Shown: one piece after another, positions 1,878 through 31,984 of the stretch
Layout: the number at the start of each line of letters is the position of its first letter
How positions within the stretch are numbered: position 1 is the stretch's first letter
IMG/VR virus record: IMGVR_UViG_3300024346_000280
Coordinates: 1-33,221 of that record
Strand: one strand, 5' to 3'
Origin: a virus
DNA length: 33,221 nucleotides
Position numbers and translations under genes: made by a program
The notes under the pieces: generated by a model
Told to the model about the DNA's origin: nothing
Database searches by the model: none
What the model saw: only the letters and a program-made list of their open reading frames with translations

Positions 1878-3968
1878 CTACCTGGTTACTCTACCTACCG
1901 GCGTTGCTTTAAAAGAAGGAGCCTTGACTGGAGCACTGTTGGGGGGGATGGCGGAAGAAAGTTCACTTATACTGTTTTCTAGGTTAGCTATCGCAGCTAG
2001 CAGCGCCTCAGGAACCTGCCCGGACCCGGACCTGGAAGACCTCATTACCCTGGCCTCAGTGTTCCTAAGAGCAGCCAGTCGGTTCTTGTTGGTATTCATA
2101 TCCATGAAAAACTGACCACCGTCAGCACCTTTGCTGTACATCATATCTTCAGAGGTAACCCCCAGCCCCTTGGCACTATTTTGGAAGCTAACAGCAGTCT
2201 TTGCGACTTGAGCCCTAGTCAATATTCGTTCGCGCTCCTTTTCTAGCCCGGCTACTTGGTACTTGTACCCAACGTGGCCTGCGCTCTTTGCAACTATCTC
2301 TTCGCGGTACTTTTCTGCTAAGGAGACCAGCTGGGCCGCCCGCTCCGTGGGGGAAGTGAATGACTCCACATTCCTAGCTATTGCCTCCCTCTGCTGCTGG
2401 ATATCATCAACGGTTTCATTCTCACCTGTAAAGTAACTTATTGATGCGTCTTTTAGTGTAAGAAGGTCTCGCGCCACGCTAGTGGCATCCATGGCTAGCT
2501 TGATGCCCTCCTCCAACCCAGCAACCATAGGAGGCAAAAGCGTCTCAAATGCTTTCAGCTGGGCATCCTGCAGTTGTCGCATCAACTTAGCTACGTCACC
2601 ACCACCAGCAGTTGAAAACCTATTAAATATCTTTGCAAGGTGCTGGATGGCGGTAGTGTTATCCAACATGTTCTCTGCAGCCGTCTTGCTTAGACTCTTA
2701 TGCTTGTCGGCCTGCTCCTGGGCCTCTGAAATATTGAACTTTCCAGCCTTCCTACCCTCCACCATGGACTGGGCCTGTGATTTACCTATACCCATCTCAG
2801 CAGCCACAGAAGCGTATTGCGCTACGTTACCACCCTCTTCTTGGATTACCTGGTCTAGGTACTTGAGAAGGTTCTTTGGGTCGGACAAGCCCTTCTCCAT
2901 TTGCTTCTCAGCTTCCCACCAACTGGTTCTCCCACCTGGCCCGTACCCCATAGCCCTCTGCAGCCTGCCCCTGGAATGCTCGCTCTTAGGGTTAACCATG
3001 GCCTGGTTCATCTTCATAGCCATAGCCGCACCACGCTCACCTTGAAAACCGGATAGATTAGTCTTACCTAGCATGGACAAAACTGTGGAACCTCCCAGCC
3101 CTACGTCTCCAGCCATCATGGACCCACCAGCCTTCTGGAGTGCGTTTGCCCCCTTCATGAATTCGACAAAACGGGCTTGCTTTAGGCCACTGTACACAGA
3201 GGCCCCCATCATCCTGGCCATGGCTCGCCCGCCGGCAGTCTGACCGCCCTTACCTATGGTGCTGGAATCAAAACTAGTTCCAGACTGCGCAAGGGATGAC
3301 ATTAAGCTAGAAGCCTCCCCAGCATTTACTGCGCGAGAACGCATAAGCTGCTGAAGCTCCCTACCCGCGTTAACCCCTGTAGACCGCGCAGCAGAAAACT
3401 GGTGCTGCGCCGTTTCAGCGTAGTTAAACCCTAGCCCCTGCCCGAATCCCTTACCAGACAGCCTGGCCCTGCCAGCGCCTTGACCAAGCATCTGGGCACG
3501 TGCCTTCTCTACCTGTAGGTGCTTCTGGTAAGCGGACACAGCGCCACCAATAACAAAACCACCTACCATCCCCAGAGCACCACCAACAGCGCGACCAGCG
3601 CCTCGGATGCCCCCCATAGTAGGGCCAGACCTGTTAGCCCTAGCGGCCTCCCTACGGTACTTGCGGTCTTCTCGGCGCTCAGACCTTATAGCCCGCTGCT
3701 CAGCCTTACGGAAGGCCTTCTTGTTGTCCCACCCCTTCTTTTCAGCTTTCTGAAGGTCGCTTACGAACTTCTTCTGAATTTTGTGATGGTCGGCGGCTAC
3801 CCTTTTCTCTGCTGCGAGGGTCTGCTTTCTAGTTCTCTGATAACTTACGTCGTTCTTACGGCGCTCCTTGTAGTTCTTCCTAGCCTGCTTCTTTACAGCC
3901 TCTAGCTCCTTAAGAACCTTCTTAGCATCTGCTATGACGTTAATCTTTAGGTCAGTACTACTAGCCAT
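1878..3968 (-). CDS. tail tape measure protein
   Basis: This 696-residue protein sets tail length and is later released through the tube. The first 120 residues are highly charged and Lys/Arg-rich, predicted as a long helix or coiled coil. A Gly/Ala-rich hydrophobic segment follows at about residues 120-145 (GAGRAVGGALGMVGGFVIGG), then a Gly/Met/Ala/Gln-rich region typical of tape measures. Another long helical section spans roughly 400-690. It starts with ATG and follows the chaperone gene by a one-base overlap (the chaperone stop and this start share position 3968). With the usual 0.15 nm per residue, the tail would be about 100 nm. It is short for a myovirus tape measure but within range. 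No lytic or peptidase domain is evident. Position between chaperones and hub fixes the call. Confidence 0.88.
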   Translation of the reverse strand: MASSTDLKINVIADAKKVLKELEAVKKQARKNYKERRKNDVSYQRTRKQTLAAEKRVAADHHKIQKKFVSDLQKAEKKGWDNKKAFRKAEQRAIRSERREDRKYRREAARANRSGPTMGGIRGAGRAVGGALGMVGGFVIGGAVSAYQKHLQVEKARAQMLGQGAGRARLSGKGFGQGLGFNYAETAQHQFSAARSTGVNAGRELQQLMRSRAVNAGEASSLMSSLAQSGTSFDSSTIGKGGQTAGGRAMARMMGASVYSGLKQARFVEFMKGANALQKAGGSMMAGDVGLGGSTVLSMLGKTNLSGFQGERGAAMAMKMNQAMVNPKSEHSRGRLQRAMGYGPGGRTSWWEAEKQMEKGLSDPKNLLKYLDQVIQEEGGNVAQYASVAAEMGIGKSQAQSMVEGRKAGKFNISEAQEQADKHKSLSKTAAENMLDNTTAIQHLAKIFNRFSTAGGGDVAKLMRQLQDAQLKAFETLLPPMVAGLEEGIKLAMDATSVARDLLTLKDASISYFTGENETVDDIQQQREAIARNVESFTSPTERAAQLVSLAEKYREEIVAKSAGHVGYKYQVAGLEKERERILTRAQVAKTAVSFQNSAKGLGVTSEDMMYSKGADGGQFFMDMNTNKNRLAALRNTEARVMRSSRSGSGQVPEALLAAIANLENSISELSSAIPPNSAPVKAPSFKATPVGRVTR

Positions 3969-4423
3969 TATTTACCCTTACCAAGTAAGTCTAGAGGAGA
4001 TATTGACGATTTTACACCACCAAACCTGTCATCAATCCCATCAAGTTGCGCAGCCTTCTTCCTGGCAGAATCGATAAGTTTTTTGCTGGCTTCAGAGGAT
4101 GCCTTACTTTCAGGCGATCTACCCTCATCTAGGTCGGGCTCTATACCCATAGACATCTCTCTTTCCCACTTATCAATCAATGGATCTCCTGTAGACTCAA
4201 ACATAATCTCTCCGTCTTCTCCACGAGAAGCGTCATACAAGGCATCCTTGTTCTTCTCGAAGAGGTCTTCGTAAAATTCAGTTAAAAGGTCTAAGGTGGT
4301 AAAATCGCCTACGTTACTAGGCGTCCAAGGAAGCTTGTACTTGTCCGTCCACCACCTTCGGAGCATTGTCAGTAGCGACGGCCTTCGAGTGTTGTTCTTG
4401 GCTATCTCCTTCGCTGCGTCCAC
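3968..4423 (-). CDS. tail assembly chaperone, downstream (T-like) partner
   Basis: A 151-residue frame beginning with a GTG at 4421-4423 lies inside the end of the upstream chaperone gene, which it overlaps by 107 nt. The frame is open further upstream, to a TGA at 4484-4486, so it could also be entered by a ribosomal frameshift from the upstream gene. The sequence RRWWTDKYKLPW followed by an acidic helix resembles the C-terminal part of tail chaperone fusion proteins. In many phages two overlapping genes between tube and tape measure make a short form and a frameshifted long form, which bind the tape measure during tube assembly. Here the needed shift is +1 (or -2), not the common -1. Independent initiation is also possible: GGAG lies 12 nt before the GTG. 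Either way, one gene of the pair encodes the tape-measure-binding part. Confidence 0.72.
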   Translation of the reverse strand: MDAAKEIAKNNTRRPSLLTMLRRWWTDKYKLPWTPSNVGDFTTLDLLTEFYEDLFEKNKDALYDASRGEDGEIMFESTGDPLIDKWEREMSMGIEPDLDEGRSPESKASSEASKKLIDSARKKAAQLDGIDDRFGGVKSSISPLDLLGKGK

Positions 4424-4814
4424 TACCGACGTTGTCTCCAGTTTTCGACCCTCTTGGTCTACGAAAGGAGTTTTCGAACTGCATCACCTCCCCGAAGACT
4501 TTGCTTAGAAGTTCTTCGTCGGCTAGCTCTGATAGGTCCCACCACACTGGGTGGGATACAACTGCAACCTCAAGGATACCGATCATCTGGTTCAGGAACT
4601 CTGTCCCCTCATCAATACCTCTACCTGTCGGGTTACCGTCATCGTCACGTACACAGTACATACCTCCGCACAACTCAGATTTCCTTCTGGAAATCTTTGT
4701 CTGGTCGAGGATACTCAACTTTTTACTAGTGAAGGTCCCATTGTAGGACTGGCCTGAGTCCTCAGACTCGTGGTCGATGCTAAATGTGTGTAGCTTTCCC
4801 TTGTTATTCATCAT
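4317..4814 (-). CDS. tail assembly chaperone, upstream (G-like) partner
   Basis: This gene of about 165 residues lies between tail tube and tape measure, the standard place for the tail-assembly chaperone. I place the start at ATG 4812-4814, because a GGAGAG site precedes it by five bases; a GTG two codons upstream is possible. The middle (ILEVAVVSHPVWWDLSEL followed by an acidic helix) has the feel of known chaperone N-terminal domains. The last 35 codons are low-complexity, Gly/Ser/Asp/Gln-rich, as expected for a linker that overlaps a second reading frame. It ends with TAG at 4317-4319. The frame that continues into the downstream partner is +1 relative to this one. If shifted, the fusion would be about 281 residues. 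It is expected to act in the cytoplasm only and be absent from virions. Confidence 0.78.
   Translation of the reverse strand: MMNNKGKLHTFSIDHESEDSGQSYNGTFTSKKLSILDQTKISRRKSELCGGMYCVRDDDGNPTGRGIDEGTEFLNQMIGILEVAVVSHPVWWDLSELADEELLSKVFGEVMQFENSFRRPRGSKTGDNVGSGRSEGDSQEQHSKAVATDNAPKVVDGQVQASLDA
4442..4445 (-). other. candidate +1 slippage site (AAA-A) in the chaperone overlap
   Basis: In the upstream chaperone frame, codon AAA (4445-4443) is followed by A, so a tRNA-Lys could slip one base forward and still pair perfectly. The next codon, CTG, is then in the downstream frame. A second candidate is TTT-C at 4463-4466. Both lie between the downstream frame's TGA at 4484-4486 and the upstream stop at 4317. 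I see no classic -1 heptamer that would give the right frame. Inference only; the pair may simply use two starts. Confidence 0.3.
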
Positions 4815-4839
4815 AAACACTCTCCATATCAGCTATCTC

Positions 4840-12770: not shown

Positions 12771-13349
12771 TCAGGGTGACGTCGATGAGTCCCGATCTGC
12801 GATGTACAGGCCGCGCCCATGGAACTCATCGATGCCTAGTCTCGCAGCTAGGGTGAACGCGTCGTCAAGGTTGTTGACAGGGCTCCCATCCGTTCCCGCT
12901 GGAAACGTGGTGCCGGGTATGCCCGTCAGGAGGTCGATGTTGATGACGCCGTTGTACGCGGTGTCCTGCTGTAGAGATAAGATCTGCTCCACGGATTGCG
13001 TGATCGGTTGCAGCCCGACTAGGAACGTGGTGAACATGCCGAGGGTCGGGATCGCAATGGCCTTGGAAGGCTCTTGCGGCGCTAGGTTGCCCGTGAAGTA
13101 GATCGTGATGTCTTCCTCCGGGGGGCGGATGCGCCAGCCGGAACCGTTCTGGATGAAGAAGTACGCGCCTTGGTCGATGCCTGGCGTAAGAGGGTTGCCG
13201 CCATCCGACGCGAATGCAGGCGGGTACTTCGCGTTGTCACTAAGCTTTACCCACTCCTTCCACTCGCTGTACAAGTCGGTCTTCACGTCAACCTCGGTTA
13301 TGCCCGAGTCGAGAGTGATAATGAGGTTCGGTCCGTCGAATGTAGGCAT
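12771..13349 (-). CDS. beta-helix fibre-like protein, N-terminal part (frameshifted)
   Basis: The 192-residue frame opens with a domain of the type TFDGPNLIITLDSGITEVDVK with a helix-like YSEWKEWVKLSDNAKYPPAF, which I recognise as common at the N-terminus of phage fibre-like virion proteins. It continues with GSGWRIRPPEED and a VNNLDDAFTLAARLGIDEFHGRG segment that normally leads straight into a parallel beta-helix. Here the frame breaks after GLYIADRD and stops after six more codons, while the -1 frame continues with the expected beta-helix. The domain order therefore supports one gene with a -1 frameshift, not two. The ATG is preceded by no clear SD and lies five bases after the upstream stop. 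Confidence 0.65.
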   Translation of the reverse strand: MPTFDGPNLIITLDSGITEVDVKTDLYSEWKEWVKLSDNAKYPPAFASDGGNPLTPGIDQGAYFFIQNGSGWRIRPPEEDITIYFTGNLAPQEPSKAIAIPTLGMFTTFLVGLQPITQSVEQILSLQQDTAYNGVINIDLLTGIPGTTFPAGTDGSPVNNLDDAFTLAARLGIDEFHGRGLYIADRDSSTSP

Positions 13350-20165: not shown

Positions 20166-23100
20166 CTACGCTGGTGGTGGGACTAGTGGAGGCTTGCGCC
20201 AGCCAACCGTGAGTTTGATGTCCTCCCAACCGGATCCGGTGTCTCGGATAGTCAAGAAGTAACGACCGGGCTTAGGATTGCTTTCAAATGCGTAGAAGTT
20301 CGCTGTGTCTTTTCTGTCGTGGTTGTATAGGTTGTACGGTGTATCCCCATTTTGAGGGAATAGGTGCCTACGCACGTACAGGGAGAACCTATCGCCGTTC
20401 GACGGGTCGCCAACGTGGTATCCGTTTACTGAGCTGATATACAAGTCAACCGCTCCTTCGGGCACGTCGAAGTAGTGGTACGTTATATTCTCAGCAGACC
20501 CTGCGTTGACTGTCGTAATGAATGTCAGACCGTTGGTCAACTCCCAATATGGAACAGCCTTGTCTTGGTCGTAGAACGTCATCCTAGAAGTTTCGTAGTA
20601 CCTAGGACTGTGCCGTACGTAACACCTGCCTTCGACCCCAGCGTCGTCAATGAGTGTTGCGTACATGTAGTCGTATCCAGACGGATTGGCTACGATGATG
20701 TCCTGGTCTAAGCCGACGTACGGTACGTTGTTGATAAGCCAGTCACACGACACCAGAGTTCTACCTGCTGCTAGCTGCAGGGTTTCTGAGCCCCGAAGGT
20801 GGACTGCCAGTTGCGTAGTGTTGGTCAGGGCTAGGTCTGGATTTATCCTGAGCGACTCAACTAAGTCTATTGTGGGAGCGTCCAGATCGACCCTGAAGTC
20901 GTCTGCGGTCCATGCCCCCCATTCGTACCCAACACAGAACCACCACCGTCCAGGTCTTGGGTCTCGTATGAGCGTCCTAGCTACGTTGGTCCACTCGTAC
21001 CCCACACTGCCATCCACTACGTCCTCCTCTACAGAGGGAGGTTGTCTGTACATTAGGATAGCCTCTATGTTACTGCCTGCTGATTCGGCCATGACCGCAA
21101 TGCTTCTCGTCCCTGGCGGTACATCAATGTAGTAGTCGGCATCGAACCCCGTGCCCGACGCTGGTCCGTTGTTCACGCCATCAACGATAACAGTGCCACT
21201 TGTGTAGTTTAGTTCGATTTTTGTGAAGCTCTCCTGTACCAGAGTAACCGACTCGCCGTAGGTGTCGGTGACTGTAAGTGATACATCCATATTCCCGGCT
21301 GTTGTGTACACGTGGAGCGGGTGCTGCTCCGTACTAACAGCAGAGCCATCACCGAAATCCCACTCCCACGAAACGACCTCGCTCATGGGAGCGAAGGTGT
21401 AGTCCGTGAACTGGACTGTCACAGAGGTCAAGTCCCACGCCTCCCATGATAGGTGCATGTCGGGTACGGGCAAATCCACAACGGATACTCGGACGGTGGA
21501 GTCCGAGTAGGTGAACTCAACGCCCTCACTGTCGGTGACGGTCAGGGCTACGGTGTACGTGCCTGCTGCTTCGTAGACGTGAGCAGGGCTCAGCAACGAG
21601 CTTGTCGCGCCATCCCCAAAGTCCCATTCTTGCGATACAATCGTGTTGCGCTGACCGTCTGCGGAGGTGTTGTTGAACTGGGCTGTGAGTCCGTTGGGCG
21701 TGTAAGTGAACGAAGGGGCCACCGCCAGTGGTCCAACTTTTATGTAAGTCAGTTGCCGAGTTATAGGGTCCGGCCCGTCCATGTAGAAATACATGAACAT
21801 TATCCCTTCGTGGTCGTAGGTGTTGCCTCCACCTAGGCCGATGGCCGACTGGTCTATGTACCCCGTGCTTGAGTACTGCGCTTCTGTGGCAGACGTATTG
21901 TCTGCATCCCACATATAGCAGTTCAAGTCCTGCGGAGTACCAATATCCCCTGCCCTGAGTTCGAAGTATTGATTGTTCGGGTTCGTTGGGTTTAGCGTCG
22001 GAAGGTCAACCCAGAAGAACGCAACCGTCTCGTTATACGTGAGGTTAACGGAGCCTTCCCAGAGGATTCCAGACTCAAGTTTTATGGCACCAGCTACGGT
22101 CGATTTGCTAACTGTTGCGGTGTGGCCCGCTGAGTCAACCACGGTCAACGTGACTGTATGTACGATTGGTGAATCGCCGGTAAGGAAAGACCCGTATTCC
22201 GTGTATTCGTGCCGTGGTGATTCTTCGTTTGATGCGTTGCCATCTCCAAAGCTCCAGACGTAGCTGGTAATTCCATGTTGGTCGTTAGACACTATAGGGG
22301 TGAAGTTGGTGAACCACCTATCGTCTTGGTCAACTAGGTAGGTGAAATCAACTGCGAGTGGGCCAACATCTCCAGTATCCACATAACTGAACAGGTCTAA
22401 CGTAGCTAGGTTAGGAACACTAAGCTGTGTTCTAAACTGTATGTCTGGGACTGTTATGTCTACCAGTGCCATCCTAACTAGGTCAAAAGAGAAGTACCCG
22501 TTAGAAGCAGTCCTAGCGTTTACAAGACTGTCTGAGAATGCTACTGGGCTCTGAGCGTAAGGAGTGTCTATAATCCTAGCTGAGACGTTAACATTGCTTA
22601 GGGGGTCGCCGTTAAGGTCGTACACGAACCCAGACACTGCACAAGTCTCTACACTTGCTGTAGGCTCCACAGTGACGTCTGCGGTCACTTCAGCCAGGTC
22701 TACAAACTGCTCGGACCTTACCGACGTCACCTTGTAGACAAAGTTACCAATGGTATCAAGCTCTGTAGAAGTGAAAGTAATCTCGTATACCCCAGAACCT
22801 AGCTCGGTCCAAAAGGTGGTTCCGGTTACTGCCGTAGTTGAGAATCCTAGAGCAGTGTTAGCCGTACCTCCGGTAACCTCAATAGAAGAGGTACCTCCGG
22901 TAGTGGCGGATGTAATGACAATGGAGCCTCCAACGTCTGCGGCGGTGGCTCCTGTAATATCGGTAGTAATGACTGCTGCTACCTCTGCTGTGGTAGCATT
23001 AGCTATGTCTAAAAAGTCCACTGTGTTGAACGTAGCGGTTAGTACTCCACCACCGTCAACTGCAACTGTTAGAGTTTGCCCGTCAACCAGTGCATAAGTC

Positions 23101-24416: not shown

Positions 24417-25856
24417 CTAGACTAGACGTCCAATGTTGATGAGACGGAGCCATTTCTTAGGAGCGAACAAGATTGGAGTACCATAAAGGAGAATCATCCA
24501 CCTGTAAGCTGGTGCCAAGATGGCAAGGTCCATGCGAAGCATAGGAAGGAGTTGACGGAAAGTGAGAACACTTTGAGTCATCTCGCCCATGTAAGCAATC
24601 TCGGTGAAAGGAAGCAAGAAGTTCAAATCATCGAAGTTGGTTACTCCAGAGTTTCCCTGACTTGCGACAGGCATCTGAGCAACAAGGCTGAAGTCAGCTG
24701 GTGAGGTAGAAACAGCCGCACCACTTGCAAGAGCACGTGTTCGGTAGATTCGGACGTATTCCGTTGGGAAACTTCCGACTGCCACAGCGTTTACGATAGC
24801 AAGGTCAACGTGGTTGCCTCCGTCCTTCTCCGCCTCAAGCATAGCCTGGTTAGCTGCGATGAAAACTGGAGCCGACTCACCAAAGCGGTTACAAGCAGTA
24901 ATTGCGTAACCAAACTCCGTGGTACCTGCTGGGATGCCCTTGTTGAAGTCACCGTCTGTGCCAGAGAGCGCAGAAGTAACCGCAGAAGGGGAAGCAGGAG
25001 CACTAGCCGAGGTCGCAGCCGCTGGAGGGCTTGGGAGCCTCTTCAGGAATACGTTCGGGTTCATCTCCATGACGCCAGCTTGGGTCATGATGGAGTTGAC
25101 ACTCATACCAACCATGCCGTTTTGAGGGGCAGGAAGGTTGATGCGCTCACGTGGGTAGAACGTCTTCACAAGGTCACTCGCTACGCGGGTACCAAGCCAG
25201 ATGTCCGTTGGGAAAGCAAATTGCTCAACCAGAAGGTTAGCTGCTTCCTCGATGTCAGCCTCTTGAAGGCTGTTACCCTCAAGGTCAATGAAGCTGGATG
25301 GATCAATAAGTGCGTCCATACCGTCCCATTGCTCAGACTCGCCATCAAACGCAAGAGACGAATCTCCTTTGAAGAGGGAAGCCTCGATCTTCTCAAGCAT
25401 CCAAAGGATACCGCTCTGATTCTCAAGAGCAATAACGTCACCATGTGCGGGGTGCACAACGGTCATTGGGTGCGTGACTTCACGAGTTGTACCAACGTAC
25501 TTGACCAAGCTGGTCTGACGTGTGTACGTGCTGTCCTGTGCTTGAGGGAGTTCACCCTCTTGCACGAAGGCGAACGAGTCCGAACCGTAGCTCGAAAGCT
25601 GGTTGTACTCTTCCACAGTGCTGTACGCAGGGCTCTTAGGAATCTTCTTCCAGAACTTAATGTGGTGCGCAGTATGCGTGACCACCTTGAGGGAACCCTC
25701 AAGTGACTCAACACGTAGCGAACTACCGCCAGTTTGAGAAGAAGTTTGGTACCCAGCTTCAAGAGCTTTTTGAAGGTCGCCAACTTCGGAATTGCTGCCA
25801 GTTCCAAAGCCGTTAACCGGCTGCTGGGAGTTGTAGTGATTTAAGCTTACGCTCAT
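24417..25856 (-). CDS. major capsid protein (HK97 fold) with inserted Ig/FN3-like domain
   Basis: The 479-residue capsid protein has a very strong start (AAGGAGATATATC-ATG). HK97-type landmarks include the N-terminal helix and arm (residues 1-60), VTHPMTVVHPAHGDVIALENQSG, the A-domain or P-domain segment with LFKGDSSLAFDGESEQWDGMDAL and IEEAANLLVEQFAFPTDIWLG, and the closing helix with LLPMLRMDLAILAPAYRWMIL. Residues about 280-420 are an insertion: an Ala/Pro/Ser linker, then GTTEFGYAITACNRFGESAP and TEYVRIYRTRALASG, with FN3/Ig-like strands. Such insertions are usually displayed on the outside of capsids. The protease gene upstream suggests that the N-terminal arm is cleaved. It is followed by the acidic-tailed gene. 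Confidence 0.88.
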   Translation of the reverse strand: MSVSLNHYNSQQPVNGFGTGSNSEVGDLQKALEAGYQTSSQTGGSSLRVESLEGSLKVVTHTAHHIKFWKKIPKSPAYSTVEEYNQLSSYGSDSFAFVQEGELPQAQDSTYTRQTSLVKYVGTTREVTHPMTVVHPAHGDVIALENQSGILWMLEKIEASLFKGDSSLAFDGESEQWDGMDALIDPSSFIDLEGNSLQEADIEEAANLLVEQFAFPTDIWLGTRVASDLVKTFYPRERINLPAPQNGMVGMSVNSIMTQAGVMEMNPNVFLKRLPSPPAAATSASAPASPSAVTSALSGTDGDFNKGIPAGTTEFGYAITACNRFGESAPVFIAANQAMLEAEKDGGNHVDLAIVNAVAVGSFPTEYVRIYRTRALASGAAVSTSPADFSLVAQMPVASQGNSGVTNFDDLNFLLPFTEIAYMGEMTQSVLTFRQLLPMLRMDLAILAPAYRWMILLYGTPILFAPKKWLRLINIGRLV

Positions 25857-25875: not shown

Positions 25876-26430
25876 TTAGTTTCCACCGCGTACGAGGGCT
25901 TCCACTTTTGCGCGAGTCGCAGGGGCCAGGTCGTTGGTGCTTTCGAAGCGAATTACCTCAATAGGGGTCACTTCATTGCTTTTAGAAAGTTCCACGAGTG
26001 CGTCACTAATGACGGATTTTGACATGTTCATGTCGAGTCCACCTGGACCTGTGTAAGACTTACTAACTACGTTAATGCCATTGTTTCCACCAGCTTGGCC
26101 CCTCATCTGAGATTTAGGTGCCCCTACTGGGAGCTGTGATTGGTACGCTACTGCGTCTGCAGAAGCTCCAACAGACTCTCCGATGCCTACTACTGCGGAT
26201 GCTAGAGACTTGTTGAATTCGTCCTGCGCGCCAGCTGCGTCTCGTTGTGACTTCTCGATAGACTCAATTCGGCGAACTAGGCCTCCTAGAGTGCTCTCAA
26301 GAGACTTAGAGATACGTCCCTCGGAACCCGACAATGCGGAACCGATTGAGTTCGTAAGCTCGTAAAGGACTGTAGAAAGCTCAAGACCTTTAGAAACCTC
26401 CAGGAAACCATCAACGGCACCGCTGACAGA
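25876..26430 (-). CDS. capsid-associated protein, part downstream of the in-frame TAG
   Basis: This stretch is in the same frame as the 166-aa gene and follows its TAG directly. The first 33 codons (VSGAVDGFLEVSKGLELSTV and YELTNSIGSAL) are open and look protein-like, but contain no ATG or GTG. The only conventional alternative start is a TTG at 26332-26334 with no SD. Then come helical and Gln/Lys/Asp-rich parts (STLGGLVRRIESIEKSQRDA; AAGAQDEFNKSLASAVVGIG) and a basic C-terminus ending KVEALVRGGN. The segment is most simply the C-terminal half of one 352-codon protein, possibly a scaffold or minor head protein, made by TAG readthrough, or separated by a point mutation. Confidence 0.6.
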   Translation of the reverse strand, partial: SVSGAVDGFLEVSKGLELSTVLYELTNSIGSALSGSEGRISKSLESTLGGLVRRIESIEKSQRDAAGAQDEFNKSLASAVVGIGESVGASADAVAYQSQLPVGAPKSQMRGQAGGNNGINVVSKSYTGPGGLDMNMSKSVISDALVELSKSNEVTPIEVIRFESTNDLAPATRAKVEALVRGGN

Positions 26431-26931
26431 CTACTTAGCATCTTGCTCTACTTCAGACTCTTTACCGCCTGCGTTGGTTTCAGGTACGCTACCAGCGTCG
26501 TCATCTTCACCAGACTTTGGAGCGCCGTCTACTGGCTTAGTGCTCGCCTTGGATAGATACTTACCTGTAGAAGAGTTGTAGCCACCCTTTAGTGCCCATG
26601 CCTCTTCTGGAGTTAGCCTGATACCCTTTGCAAGTTGCGATTGAATTGCTGGAAGTGGATTCACTCCATCTGCAATTGCAACCTCTGCACTGGTCAGTGC
26701 TACCGACTTACGAATCTTGTTAGCAAGTGACTTGCGAACTCCATTATAGTCGGTACCGTTTTCGTCGATGTGAACATCTCCACCATTAAGCTCATCTAAA
26801 TCTTCCTGCGCTCCGCCTCCCCAGGTACCTGGGTTGGAGTCACTGCCGGTGTGATGTAGTTGAGAGCCTTTGGCCATGTCCTGTAGGCGGGCCAGAGACT
26901 TCTGGAAGTCGCCATTCTTTACAGTTGCCAT
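26431..26931 (-). CDS. capsid-associated protein, part upstream of the in-frame TAG
   Basis: The 166-residue protein begins MATVKNGDFQKSLARLQDMA, continues with DSNPGTWGGGAQEDLDEL, IDENGTDYNGVRKSLANKI, and SVALTSAEVAIADGVNPLP with TPEEAWALKGGYN, a set I recognise as a family located next to phage capsid genes. It ends with a hydrophilic acidic linker (SVPETNAGGKESEVEQDAK), then TAG. SD GGAGAG precedes the ATG and overlaps the end of the tiny upstream frame. In related proteins the chain normally continues past this linker into a helical domain, so the TAG at 26431-26433 probably interrupts, or conditionally terminates, a longer gene. Likely role: scaffold or minor head protein. Confidence 0.68.
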   Translation of the reverse strand: MATVKNGDFQKSLARLQDMAKGSQLHHTGSDSNPGTWGGGAQEDLDELNGGDVHIDENGTDYNGVRKSLANKIRKSVALTSAEVAIADGVNPLPAIQSQLAKGIRLTPEEAWALKGGYNSSTGKYLSKASTKPVDGAPKSGEDDDAGSVPETNAGGKESEVEQDAK

Positions 26932-27039: not shown

Positions 27040-27795
27040 TTAGACACTTTCGATACCCTTGGAGATGAAGATAGCGTCCACAACTGCTGCAGCAGTGGCC
27101 CTACTCCACCCCTTCTCTAGTTGGAGTACGGTGACGTACTCGTCGTGCGAAAGAGACATCTCTGGTGGAACATCCGCCAGTGACTTGTATGTCGTAACTT
27201 TTTCGGAACCCTCTAGGGATTCAGGTTGAAGCGCCAATCCTCCTGCGCTCCCAGCGGATAGTGCCTTTTCCTCGTCTTCCTCATCTTCACCCTCAATTAA
27301 AAGAGACCCGGAGAGAGACTTTGCGATCTCCGCCCAGGTGTTGGTGTTGACAGGGTTTGCAGTGATAGCGACGTTCTTGATCCAACAAGAGACAATCTTC
27401 GTACCACTCTTCTTTTTAACTTTGCCTTCGATAGAAAAGCCCACTTTTCTATCAGAGCCAGACTGTGCTAGGGAGTTGATGTGCTCCCACCAATAGTCTG
27501 CACACTCTTTTCCTTTATAAATGAACCCTTTAATCCAAAAGCCGTCCTTAGTTAGTTTGGCCTCTGTGGGCTCCCCTACTAGATTCTCAGGCCCCTGCTG
27601 GTGGTCATTATTAAAGTGGCCGTGCTTTAGAAAATACGAGAAATCTAGGCCTGCCTGCTTTACGGACTCGTTCTGCAGGTCCATATGGTCGGTGCTGGCA
27701 ATTCCTTGGATCCAGCGCTTACCATCCTTGTCTTTCCCGGCCTTCACCATGGTAGCAGGAAGGAAAAATTTGAATGTTTCTTCGATTTTAGACAT
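27040..27795 (-). CDS. prohead maturation protease (HK97/S78-like serine protease)
   Basis: The 251-residue protein contains the usual prohead protease core. Residues 27-45 form the beta strand and loop GKRWIQGIASTDHMDLQNE, residues 56-67 (LKHGHFNNDHQQ) hold the His expected at position 65, and residues 118-123 (VGFSIE) the nucleophile Ser at about 121, followed by KIVSCWIKNVAITANPVN, the strand normally after the active site. An acidic linker (IEGEDEEDEEKA) precedes a C-terminal extension, which may be the self-cleaved tail. It lies upstream of the capsid-associated and major capsid genes and would cleave their N-terminal or scaffold parts in the procapsid. A strong terminator-like hairpin lies 25 bases before its ATG, so expression may depend on readthrough. 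Confidence 0.85.
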   Translation of the reverse strand: MSKIEETFKFFLPATMVKAGKDKDGKRWIQGIASTDHMDLQNESVKQAGLDFSYFLKHGHFNNDHQQGPENLVGEPTEAKLTKDGFWIKGFIYKGKECADYWWEHINSLAQSGSDRKVGFSIEGKVKKKSGTKIVSCWIKNVAITANPVNTNTWAEIAKSLSGSLLIEGEDEEDEEKALSAGSAGGLALQPESLEGSEKVTTYKSLADVPPEMSLSHDEYVTVLQLEKGWSRATAAAVVDAIFISKGIESV

Positions 27796-27921: not shown

Positions 27922-28131
27922 CTATTTGTAATCTTTAATAAAAAGTGGTGGGTTAGCTACATCTCTGTCTAACTGCAGTGGTACCTGTACCTCTTTATTA
28001 CAGCCCTTACACACGGCAAACACTTCATCACCCTTAATTACTAGTATTTTAGACCTTATTTTGCTCTCGTTGTCTCCTACAGACTTTAGAACAATCTCTG
28101 AGCAGGAGCACTTTATTTGGGATAATCTCAC
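27922..28131 (-). CDS. 69-aa zinc-ribbon protein (CxC...CxxC)
   Basis: The protein carries Cys8-x-Cys10 and Cys41-x2-Cys44, separated by about 30 residues rich in Lys/Val/Ile (KILVIKGDEVFAVCKGC), as in small zinc ribbons that bind nucleic acid or stabilise a fold, for instance the Com-like and late-transcription zinc ribbons of phages. Its ATG overlaps the TGA of the 999-residue gene (ATGA), so it is translationally coupled. The TAG stop forms part of the dyad overlapping the next promoter. It could be a regulator of late transcription or a head-assembly helper; the sequence alone does not decide. Confidence 0.65.
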   Translation of the reverse strand: MRLSQIKCSCSEIVLKSVGDNESKIRSKILVIKGDEVFAVCKGCNKEVQVPLQLDRDVANPPLFIKDYK

Positions 28132-31127
28132 GCTGCCGCCTTTGCCTGGAAGTTATGCACTGGTACAGTCCTTAGCCATCTGCTGAATTCTTCTTCATCT
28201 TCATTGCGACCTGTCAACACCATTGACACCTGAGGTACTGAGTCGTGTACAAATCTGGAAAGGGACGTGTCTCCACCGGTACCTATGCCCATCTTTTCAC
28301 ATGACTGCTTAATGGACTGTACTACGATTGGGTCTACGGCTGCACTCTCGATAGCGTAGATAGCGCTCTCAAAATCTTCCACCCTCCCCAAGTCGTGCCC
28401 CATCTCGGACGCCACCTCTAGGAGGGCGAAGTGGTGCGCAGCATCGTAGTTAGCGTTGTGAGAACCAAATACCCTCTGTATCTCTACGGAGTACGTCTGA
28501 CTTGCGTGGTAGGTCTGCAAGGACTCTGCACTGACTCCTACCTCTTCGAGTAGGTTAACTATAAAGTGAGGCCCTATCCTTCGCATATTTGAATAGTCCA
28601 TGTCTCCATCCATACTAACTGGGGCCACCATGAACAGAGGCTCACCCGGATCCCTATTGGAGATCATTGCCCCTAACTGCTGCACTAGGTTAGGGCCCCC
28701 GTATACTTTCCTTTTACCAATAGTAAGTATCTCTCTGGTAAGTTTAACGTCTCCAACCTTTAGAGCCATTAGCTCACGAACCCTAAACCTGCCTTGGTCT
28801 AGCAGTGCGAGAGCCACAGCCACAATCTTATCTTTCTGGTGGTTGGACTTGAACAAAGCAGCTACGTACTGCCGGAAGTGCGGCAGTCTGTTGTCTGTTA
28901 AAGAATTCTGCCGGTTTATCTGGAACTGTGGGTTTCCTCGAAGGTCTGAGTCGATATATGAGTACTCGTGGTCTCCAGTGACAGGGTTAACCCACCTAGC
29001 GGCCCATAGGTTCTCCGGGTCGTTGCGATGGTAGTTCCGGTTCCACTGGACGTCTGCCCCGGTGTACGGGGCCCTAGACAGCTTCCTACCATCCTGTGAG
29101 TAGAACTGTGGAGCATTCTCAGGAGACATGGCATCGTCTGCTGCGTCTCCGAACGCGCTGTTGTAGTCTGCGTGTCCTTGAGGGGCGTTGCCCCTGGTGG
29201 ACACATTCCCTGCTTCATCCTTGTACACGTACCTAGGGTACATGTCGTTACCCTCTTTGTGGGAGTAGGTGAAGTTGGCTTTCTCGAAGTATTCTTCTTC
29301 TGACATAGCTAGTATAGCCTTTTCCAGTGCTACTACAGACCTAAATGACTTCTCTACTGGCCAAAGATGCTCGTTTAACGTAACGATATCAGCACCACGC
29401 CCCTGACTATTTAGCACCCTGTTAGCCCAATCTCTGACGTCGTCCACAGTTTGAGTTATGACTCTTCCGTCACCTCCTTCAGCGACTTCTGAACCTGCTC
29501 CACTGAGAGCCTGCTTAAACTGATTAGCTATAGCTTTTAGGTCCTCGTCCTTTGCACTTTGAATAAACGAGTCTGCCCTATCCGTTAAATCACTAATCCT
29601 GAGAGCGCCTCTTTCTTGAGGGCTTAGCTTGAACTCCTCTTTCTCTTCCGCAGTAGCAACCTCTACTTCAGGAGGAGGTGCATTCGCCGCAACGTCCGCA
29701 CGGGCTTCTGCGTCTAGTCTCTGTAGCTCTGCGAAGCCTTCATTCCCGGCCTGTACATTAAAAGCCTTAGTTGCGACACGAGATTGTACTCTCCTCTTTA
29801 GCTCGTACTCCATGGTATGGCCAGGTCTCTTAGTATCTGGGTGCCAGGTGTCTACAATATCGCCGATAGCTCCTACTATTGGGGCGTCGGCTGGGTCCGC
29901 AGCCATGTTGGACAGTTCTCCAGGGTCTATCTTCGGGTTATTTATGGCCGTAATTGAGGGTCCGTACTCACGTGCGATGTCCCTCATAGCGTTCAATCGA
30001 TTCTCGTCGGAACCCCAGTCATTCATGTACGCCCGCCTACGAAGACCGTGCCCAGGGCCAGTTCTTCCGGCCTTAATGGGAAGAGCGCCTGAAGCCAGAA
30101 TATGACCGGTATCCATACCCCTACTCTTCATGGAGTCTGCGGTATAATCATCCATATTAGTGGAGATTCCCAGGTCGGTAAGCCTTTTAAGAAGCGATGA
30201 AATCCTGTTTACAGCGTTGTTTAGGTGGTTTGCAAACTCTTCAATTCTAGCCTCATTAGGCGCATAAATAGTGGTTTTACCTGAAAACTTGTTGTAAAGG
30301 AAGCTACCCTTATCAAGTACAATCTTCCAACCTCTAGAGATCTCTTTTATCTTCTTGCCTTTTGGATCAATAAATCGATTAGTTTTTTTGTCATACGGCT
30401 GAGCTACCTTGACTACCCTCCCATGCACACGGCCAGTGATATTATCCTTTATTTCAGGAGTCTTGATCCTACCACTGGCTACGGCGGAGTCTACTGCCAG
30501 CTGAAGCCGCATGAACGTATTGAACTCGTCCCATGCCTCTTCGGGAGTCGCCTTACTTGTGTGGGTTGCCCAAGGTCCGGTAATATAGTCCTCATTAATC
30601 ATAGGGCCTACTGGTTTAAGCTTAATCTCCCAATTGTGCTTCGCCGATGGAGGAGCCTTGCGCAGCTCAACCGTAAAATTCTGCCCTGTGGCGGGCATCG
30701 TAATCTCACCCTTTTTCCCAGGCTCATTTTGTGGACCTTGCTGCCTAGCTAACCTGTAGGCTTCCTCTGCGTTTGCGTTGTCTTCGCTAGGGTTGTGGTG
30801 CTGAGGTAGAGCGTCTACGCTGTGCGTATCCCTGAAAGCATCTGCAAAGCCGTGTGCGCCTTCGCTTGGGTCATCCTGGTAGGTGTACTTCCAGGAGCCG
30901 TTAACCCACTCCCTCTTGATGTACTTTCCTCCACGCTTCCGACCCTCTGCTCCAGCAGCGGGGGCTCCCGCAGACGAGTTCCCTGCAGCCGAAGCACCTC
31001 CCCCGCCCCCTACCGGAGCTGCACTGGTGGGTGAGGTTGGGGAATCGGCACGGGCAGACGCTAGCGGGTCGGCTGCCTTCATTAGGTCAAGAATTCCGTC
31101 TGATTTTTTCAACACTACCTGTCCCAC
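28128..31127 (-). CDS. 999-aa head-operon protein with C-terminal topoisomerase IB/tyrosine recombinase-like domain
   Basis: The first 60 residues are Ala/Gly/Pro-rich and disordered, then comes KYIKREWVNGSWKYTYQD, a motif recurrent in phage internal proteins. Residues about 100-640 are mixed and unrecognised, with long helical stretches. Residues about 720-960 look like a topoisomerase IB catalytic core: IVAVALALLDQGRFRVRELM with Arg782 in the Arg-I position, LTIGKRKVYG with Lys805, and LQTYHASQTYS around Gln871. In active enzymes the last motif is FRTYNAS, with catalytic Arg where this protein has Gln. The tail ESAAVDPIVV replaces the NYLDP signature, giving Ala930 for the Tyr. The start is GTG at 31125-31127, overlapping the endonuclease end by 13 nt. 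It is probably virion-located, an inactive fold reused structurally or for DNA binding. The alignment is from memory. Confidence 0.58.
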   Translation of the reverse strand: MGQVVLKKSDGILDLMKAADPLASARADSPTSPTSAAPVGGGGGASAAGNSSAGAPAAGAEGRKRGGKYIKREWVNGSWKYTYQDDPSEGAHGFADAFRDTHSVDALPQHHNPSEDNANAEEAYRLARQQGPQNEPGKKGEITMPATGQNFTVELRKAPPSAKHNWEIKLKPVGPMINEDYITGPWATHTSKATPEEAWDEFNTFMRLQLAVDSAVASGRIKTPEIKDNITGRVHGRVVKVAQPYDKKTNRFIDPKGKKIKEISRGWKIVLDKGSFLYNKFSGKTTIYAPNEARIEEFANHLNNAVNRISSLLKRLTDLGISTNMDDYTADSMKSRGMDTGHILASGALPIKAGRTGPGHGLRRRAYMNDWGSDENRLNAMRDIAREYGPSITAINNPKIDPGELSNMAADPADAPIVGAIGDIVDTWHPDTKRPGHTMEYELKRRVQSRVATKAFNVQAGNEGFAELQRLDAEARADVAANAPPPEVEVATAEEKEEFKLSPQERGALRISDLTDRADSFIQSAKDEDLKAIANQFKQALSGAGSEVAEGGDGRVITQTVDDVRDWANRVLNSQGRGADIVTLNEHLWPVEKSFRSVVALEKAILAMSEEEYFEKANFTYSHKEGNDMYPRYVYKDEAGNVSTRGNAPQGHADYNSAFGDAADDAMSPENAPQFYSQDGRKLSRAPYTGADVQWNRNYHRNDPENLWAARWVNPVTGDHEYSYIDSDLRGNPQFQINRQNSLTDNRLPHFRQYVAALFKSNHQKDKIVAVALALLDQGRFRVRELMALKVGDVKLTREILTIGKRKVYGGPNLVQQLGAMISNRDPGEPLFMVAPVSMDGDMDYSNMRRIGPHFIVNLLEEVGVSAESLQTYHASQTYSVEIQRVFGSHNANYDAAHHFALLEVASEMGHDLGRVEDFESAIYAIESAAVDPIVVQSIKQSCEKMGIGTGGDTSLSRFVHDSVPQVSMVLTGRNEDEEEFSRWLRTVPVHNFQAKAAA

Positions 31128-31984
31128 GTCTTTCTAGTTAGGATACCCCTAACTATCATCCTAGTGAGGCCATACTTTTTAGCTAAGGCAGCAGCCCCAT
31201 TCTTCCTTGGTACGTACTCTTCTCGTATTTTATTAGCAAGATCTAATGTTATGTTGTGTGGGTTTGCCCTAGGAACATAATGTTCTGCGTTTCTTCTGGC
31301 GTCCCTTGTCGAAATTCTAGAAGCCTTTAAACTGGATTTATGTGCTTCAGACAATTTCTTCCCCATTTTTGCCTTAGACATATTGCGTCTTGATTTCTCA
31401 GTGTGTTTCTTCCCCCTTTTTGCCTTAGACATTTTTTCTATAGATTCTTCGGAATGCTTTCTCCCCTTGTGCACCTTAGACATCTTCTTCCTAGTCTCTA
31501 GGGAATGCTTCTTTCCAGTATTAGCCGCACGAAGCGTGGCCGCATGTGCTTCAGATAATTTCTTCCCCCTGTGCGCCTTAGACATCTTCTTCCTAGTCTC
31601 TAGGGAATGCTTCTTCCCCTTGTGCGCCTTAGACATCTTCTTCCTAGTGGCTTCTGTAGGTATTCCACCTTCTCCCCCCTCAGTACTATTAGTAAGATTG
31701 AATCCTATAGACCTATACAGCGCTATAAGCTCTATTTCTTTGTAATCAAGGGATTCATCATCACAACAGTAAGCCAGAATAGACCACTCTGGTTTGCGCC
31801 CTGCATTCACACACTTAGCAATCCATTTCTCCTTGTGAGTAGACTTCTTAAACCACGAAGAAAGCACTAAGTGTTGCGGAGGTCTCTTCGATCCTCGCGC
31901 AGTCTTCCCTACATACCTTACTTCGCCAGTCCATGGACAGTGTAGGGCGTATACAAATCTGTTATTCTCCTCAGCTATTAACAT
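31115..31984 (-). CDS. GIY-YIG homing endonuclease with NUMOD3-like repeats
   Basis: The 289-residue protein has a GIY-YIG catalytic module at residues 10-105 (FVYALHCPWTGEVRYVGKT, with the YVG triplet and following HLVLSSWFKKSTHKEKW). The middle is made of repeated, basic KKMSKAHKGKKHSLETR-type units (about 110-215), typical of NUMOD3 DNA-binding modules, followed by a HTH-like end, ITLDLANKIREEYVPRKNGAA and LAKKYGLTRMIVRGILTR. Free-standing enzymes of this type cut phage DNA lacking the element and spread by recombination. It sits between two head genes. It starts right after the stop of the nested 87-aa gene and overlaps the start of the 999-aa gene by 13 nt. Insertion may thus have reshaped that gene's start. 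Confidence 0.9.
   Translation of the reverse strand: MLIAEENNRFVYALHCPWTGEVRYVGKTARGSKRPPQHLVLSSWFKKSTHKEKWIAKCVNAGRKPEWSILAYCCDDESLDYKEIELIALYRSIGFNLTNSTEGGEGGIPTEATRKKMSKAHKGKKHSLETRKKMSKAHRGKKLSEAHAATLRAANTGKKHSLETRKKMSKVHKGRKHSEESIEKMSKAKRGKKHTEKSRRNMSKAKMGKKLSEAHKSSLKASRISTRDARRNAEHYVPRANPHNITLDLANKIREEYVPRKNGAAALAKKYGLTRMIVRGILTRKTWDR
31370..31660 (-). repeat. tandem NUMOD3-coding repeats in the endonuclease gene
   Basis: About six imperfect units encode K-K-M-S-K-A/V-H/K-x-G-K/R-K-H followed by S/T-L/E-E-T/S-R. Near-identical nucleotide blocks, such as that starting TTAGACATCTTCTTCCTAGT (plus strand), occur at about 31478-31510 and again at 31579-31611, with a partial third at 31629-31650. 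The nucleotide identity, not just protein identity, suggests recent unit duplication. Confidence 0.7.

Follow-up and report, generated by a model that had tools for sequence, protein, structure and literature searches.

An in-frame TAG in a putative SPO1-like head scaffold gene of a viral contig most likely reflects local sequence error

Background

In phage SPO1 (Herelleviridae), the head scaffolding gene gp3.3, whose product falls into phrog_15087, occupies the middle position in a protease-scaffold-major capsid gene order. In-frame stop codons in virion genes are represented by the coat gene of the RNA phage Qbeta, in which the stop is functional and its readthrough yields the A1 protein. 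A different kind of precedent comes from metagenome assemblies, for which local errors that produce incorrect protein-coding sequences have been documented (PMC7111523); these are short wrong stretches that damage genes while the rest of the contig is correct.

The stretch of DNA analysed here, a 33,221-nucleotide viral contig that we refer to as the window, contains a locus to which each of these systems is relevant. A putative SPO1 gp3.3-like head scaffold gene is located on the minus strand at 25876–26931 and resembles the Qbeta coat gene: both are virion genes whose frame contains a stop and remains open past it. The initial annotation had proposed programmed readthrough of this stop, with a point mutation or a sequencing error as the alternative. 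We compared the locus with near-identical contigs and with more distant homologues to see how these proposals fare.

The interrupted frame

The minus-strand frame that begins with an ATG at 26931 and ends at 25876 translates into 166 amino acids, a TAG (26433–26431), 184 sense codons and a terminal stop. It had been stated that the same frame stays open beyond the TAG and that the first alternative start there is a TTG; both statements hold, as the open part continues down to 25876 and the first mechanical start past the TAG is the TTG at 26334. The view that TAG is a normal terminator elsewhere, making global recoding unlikely, was likewise correct: TAG terminates 11 of the 31 listed ORFs (the 166-aa ORF among them), which rules out global TAG recoding. 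Two features speak for programmed readthrough, by which the scaffold would be made in two lengths: the frame is open before and after the TAG, and TAG serves as a terminator in other genes. Against it, the window, which is only part of the genome, contains no tRNA gene and hence no suppressor tRNA.

Identity of the gene and its neighbours

The interrupted frame has the prohead (head maturation) protease gene as its upstream neighbour (27040–27795, minus strand; phrog_1028, E=1.6e-57) and the major capsid protein gene as its downstream neighbour (24417–25856, minus strand; phrog_752, E=6.9e-97), the same position that gp3.3 occupies in SPO1. The protein of the intact close relative matches phrog_15087, the head scaffolding protein family, with E=4e-6 over residues 132–244, a segment that spans the TAG site. 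Two other homologues match this family with E=9e-8 and 3e-7, and the C-terminal part encoded in the window gives E=0.00055 when searched by itself. A protein search of annotated phages with the intact scaffold returned no match, so the placement in the scaffold family rests on the PHROG profile and on gene order. Relatives of the capsid protein in annotated phages belong mostly to Herelleviridae-type phages of Firmicutes; the best among the matches listed were Exiguobacterium phage vB_EalM-132 and an SPO1-type Bacillus phage, at about 43–44% identity to the capsid protein. From family membership and gene order, we infer that 25876–26931 is the head-scaffold gene of an SPO1-like phage.

Several other genes of the window deserve mention. 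The 999-aa ORF upstream of the protease (28128–31127, minus strand) stands where SPO1 has its portal gene; its C-terminal part is weakly similar to type IB topoisomerases (Pfam PF01028, E=0.012, below the cutoff; PDB 6z01, E=0.061). A homing endonuclease gene with NUMOD3 (31115–31984, minus strand) adjoins the head genes. At 3968–4820 of the minus strand, two ORFs (4317–4820 and 3968–4423) overlap in the manner of programmed-frameshift chaperone genes, and the former weakly matches a tail assembly chaperone family.

Homologues and family profile

Relatives of the capsid gene were sought in viral contigs, which yielded 28 loci, including a few nearly identical pairs and the near-identical contig 3300027320_000054. 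All 28 loci have one unbroken frame of 311–393 codons between the protease and capsid genes; among the loci compared, the gene is broken in the window contig alone. This single frame in all relatives rules out that there are two genes here, the second having its own start codon. All 25 distinct homologues have a lysine in the alignment column that corresponds to the TAG, with serine as the next residue in 24 of them, and this lysine (K167) is invariant in a 24-sequence alignment. Readthrough would call for a stop conserved at this position among relatives, and the alignment shows a sense codon there instead: none of the relatives found, near or far, has the stop.

A family profile was built from 23 homologues, leaving out the close relative. 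It scored the N-terminal part at 110 bits, the C-terminal part at 166 bits and the whole frame at 286 bits. Because both parts are scored by the same profile, they represent the N- and C-terminal halves of one protein family. The suggestion that the two frames together encode a single head protein is thus borne out by the profile scores as well as by the 28 whole loci. The acidic linker before the TAG and the helical domain after it are both parts of the intact protein in its predicted structure, which has a disordered region at residues 126–163, helices from residue 164 and a long helix at 187–266, with a mean pLDDT of only 64.5 (low confidence).

Comparison with near-identical contigs

IMGVR contig 3300027320_000054, which comes from another dataset, is 99.94% identical to the window, aligning over its entire 23,635 bases with 14 differences, and is the only one of the near-identical contigs to span the TAG site. 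Its codon at this site is AAG. Nine of the 14 differences lie within 85 bases on the minus strand (26349–26433), the first of them being the base that creates the TAG. The remaining five are three substitutions in 20498–20503, one base lacking in the window at 12789 and a lone difference at 28752, where 3300027159_000446, a third contig, sides with 3300027320_000054 against the window. These two contigs, which are from different datasets, share 5,243 bases without a single difference; 3300027159_000446 ends at window position 26882, short of the TAG. The variant stretch of the window was absent from all other viral contigs searched. With an AAG in a near-identical contig, a lysine in all distinct homologues and eight other damaging-looking changes accompanying the TAG, programmed readthrough is very unlikely.

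The nine-substitution cluster

All nine substitutions are nonsynonymous, each changing an amino acid or making the stop; seven are at first codon positions, two at second and none at third. Transversions account for six of the nine, the share expected of random substitution. Taken together, these features differ from natural divergence and from control pairs of near-identical contigs within the family, which showed 0–4 differences in 3.8–9.4 kb (10 in total, 8 of them transitions); one such pair had three differences inside 17 bases. Measured with the profile that omits the close relative, the nine changes lose 15.7 bits. When nine substitutions were placed at random in these 85 bases (1,500 sets), the mean loss was 11.4 bits (sd 4.4), and 17% of the sets lost at least as much as the window, so that the damage is of the size that chance substitution would produce. 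Since a stop arose in 23% of these random sets, the TAG calls for no cause of its own. If errors fell uniformly at random, the probability of no synonymous change is ~0.07 and that of no third-position change is ~0.02. Random error therefore fits the cluster, imperfectly, and the lack of third-position changes is a mild oddity that is left unexplained.

The edges of the tract are sharp and its flanks identical, as could result if the sample contained a diverged relative whose sequence entered by gene conversion or through a chimeric assembly. Such an origin is nevertheless very improbable: synonymous changes should predominate in a tract from a functional relative, whereas none of the nine is synonymous; the window codon is present in any homologue at just one of the nine changed columns; and no donor was found, the tract being missing from the other viral contigs searched. 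Neither the contig comparison nor a repeat search of the neighbourhood revealed a second copy of the tract. A diversity-generating retroelement target was also considered and is ruled out, as just three of the nine changes are at a coding-strand A, with C, T and G altered too.

A real cluster of mutations in the phage lineage, arising for example through error-prone repair, would leave a phage that is scaffold-defective or reliant on intact co-infecting copies. The variant bases are part of the contig as deposited, so tight a cluster could stem from a mutation event that affects several bases, and the missing third-position changes are slightly odd for pure sequencing noise. However, a stop at an invariant lysine combined with changes of other conserved residues should be lethal or very harmful, the gene is whole in every relative, and in the rest of its sequence the contig scarcely differs from one in which this gene is intact; the further local defects of the window contig described below also point to sequence quality. 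We consider this explanation unlikely. The more specific version, in which localized mutagenesis in the phage population produced an amino-acid-changing tract and the stop is tolerated via suppression or complementation, is very improbable.

Other local defects in the window contig

The one-base deletion at 12789 splits a gene that has 447 codons in the near-identical contig (12007–13349, minus strand) into ORFs of 192 and 231 aa; among the loci compared, relatives of this gene were not found outside the near-identical contig. A second small cluster comprises the three substitutions within six bases at 20498–20503 (minus strand), which make residues 928 and 930 of a 1039-aa ORF differ between the two contigs and include a swap of two adjacent bases. 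No relatives covering this part of the ORF were found. The occurrence of several local differences of such kind within one contig favours a cause in sequence quality.

Origin of the TAG and comparison with known systems

The TAG most likely belongs to an 85-base stretch of wrong bases that arose through a local sequencing or assembly error. We infer from the contig comparison that the cause lies in sequencing or assembly rather than in the phage. Two observations favour an artefact over a real damaging cluster: apart from these differences, the phage hardly departs from one whose gene is intact, and the same contig has further local defects. As an example, a thinly covered stretch assembled from an error-rich read could have introduced the nine wrong bases, the TAG being a by-product. 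The alternative offered by the initial annotation, a point mutation or sequencing error, agrees with the cluster of nine substitutions that starts at the TAG. The real gene would then be uninterrupted, its product running from an N-terminal part through a disordered, acidic linker and a long helix to a helical C-terminal part. This intact scaffold protein would help the capsid protein to assemble into the prohead. On sequence evidence, the internal TAG is most likely no real biological feature. This result removes a false readthrough candidate and carries little biological weight; its practical lesson is that a near-identical contig should be checked at the site, along with neighbouring substitutions, before recoding is proposed.

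In contrast to the stop of the Qbeta coat gene, that of the window is missing from every relative and sits inside a cluster of random-looking changes. The closer parallel appears to be the local assembly errors described for metagenomes (PMC7111523), although those were defined by read-level proof and the case of the window is known from contig comparison. The underlying gene resembles SPO1 gp3.3 in the protease-scaffold-major capsid order, in the profile match across the TAG site and in a similar Lys-Ser stretch ahead of the helical region; such a stretch was seen by eye, in separate alignments, before the related segment in SPO1 gp3.3 and in the Exiguobacterium phage protein. Lys-Ser dipeptides are repeated along both the scaffold protein and gp3.3, and could conceivably be maturation cleavage sites. 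The scaffold of the window differs from gp3.3 in being longer (351 vs 244 aa), with an extra N-terminal part, and in the TAG interruption, which is confined to the window contig.
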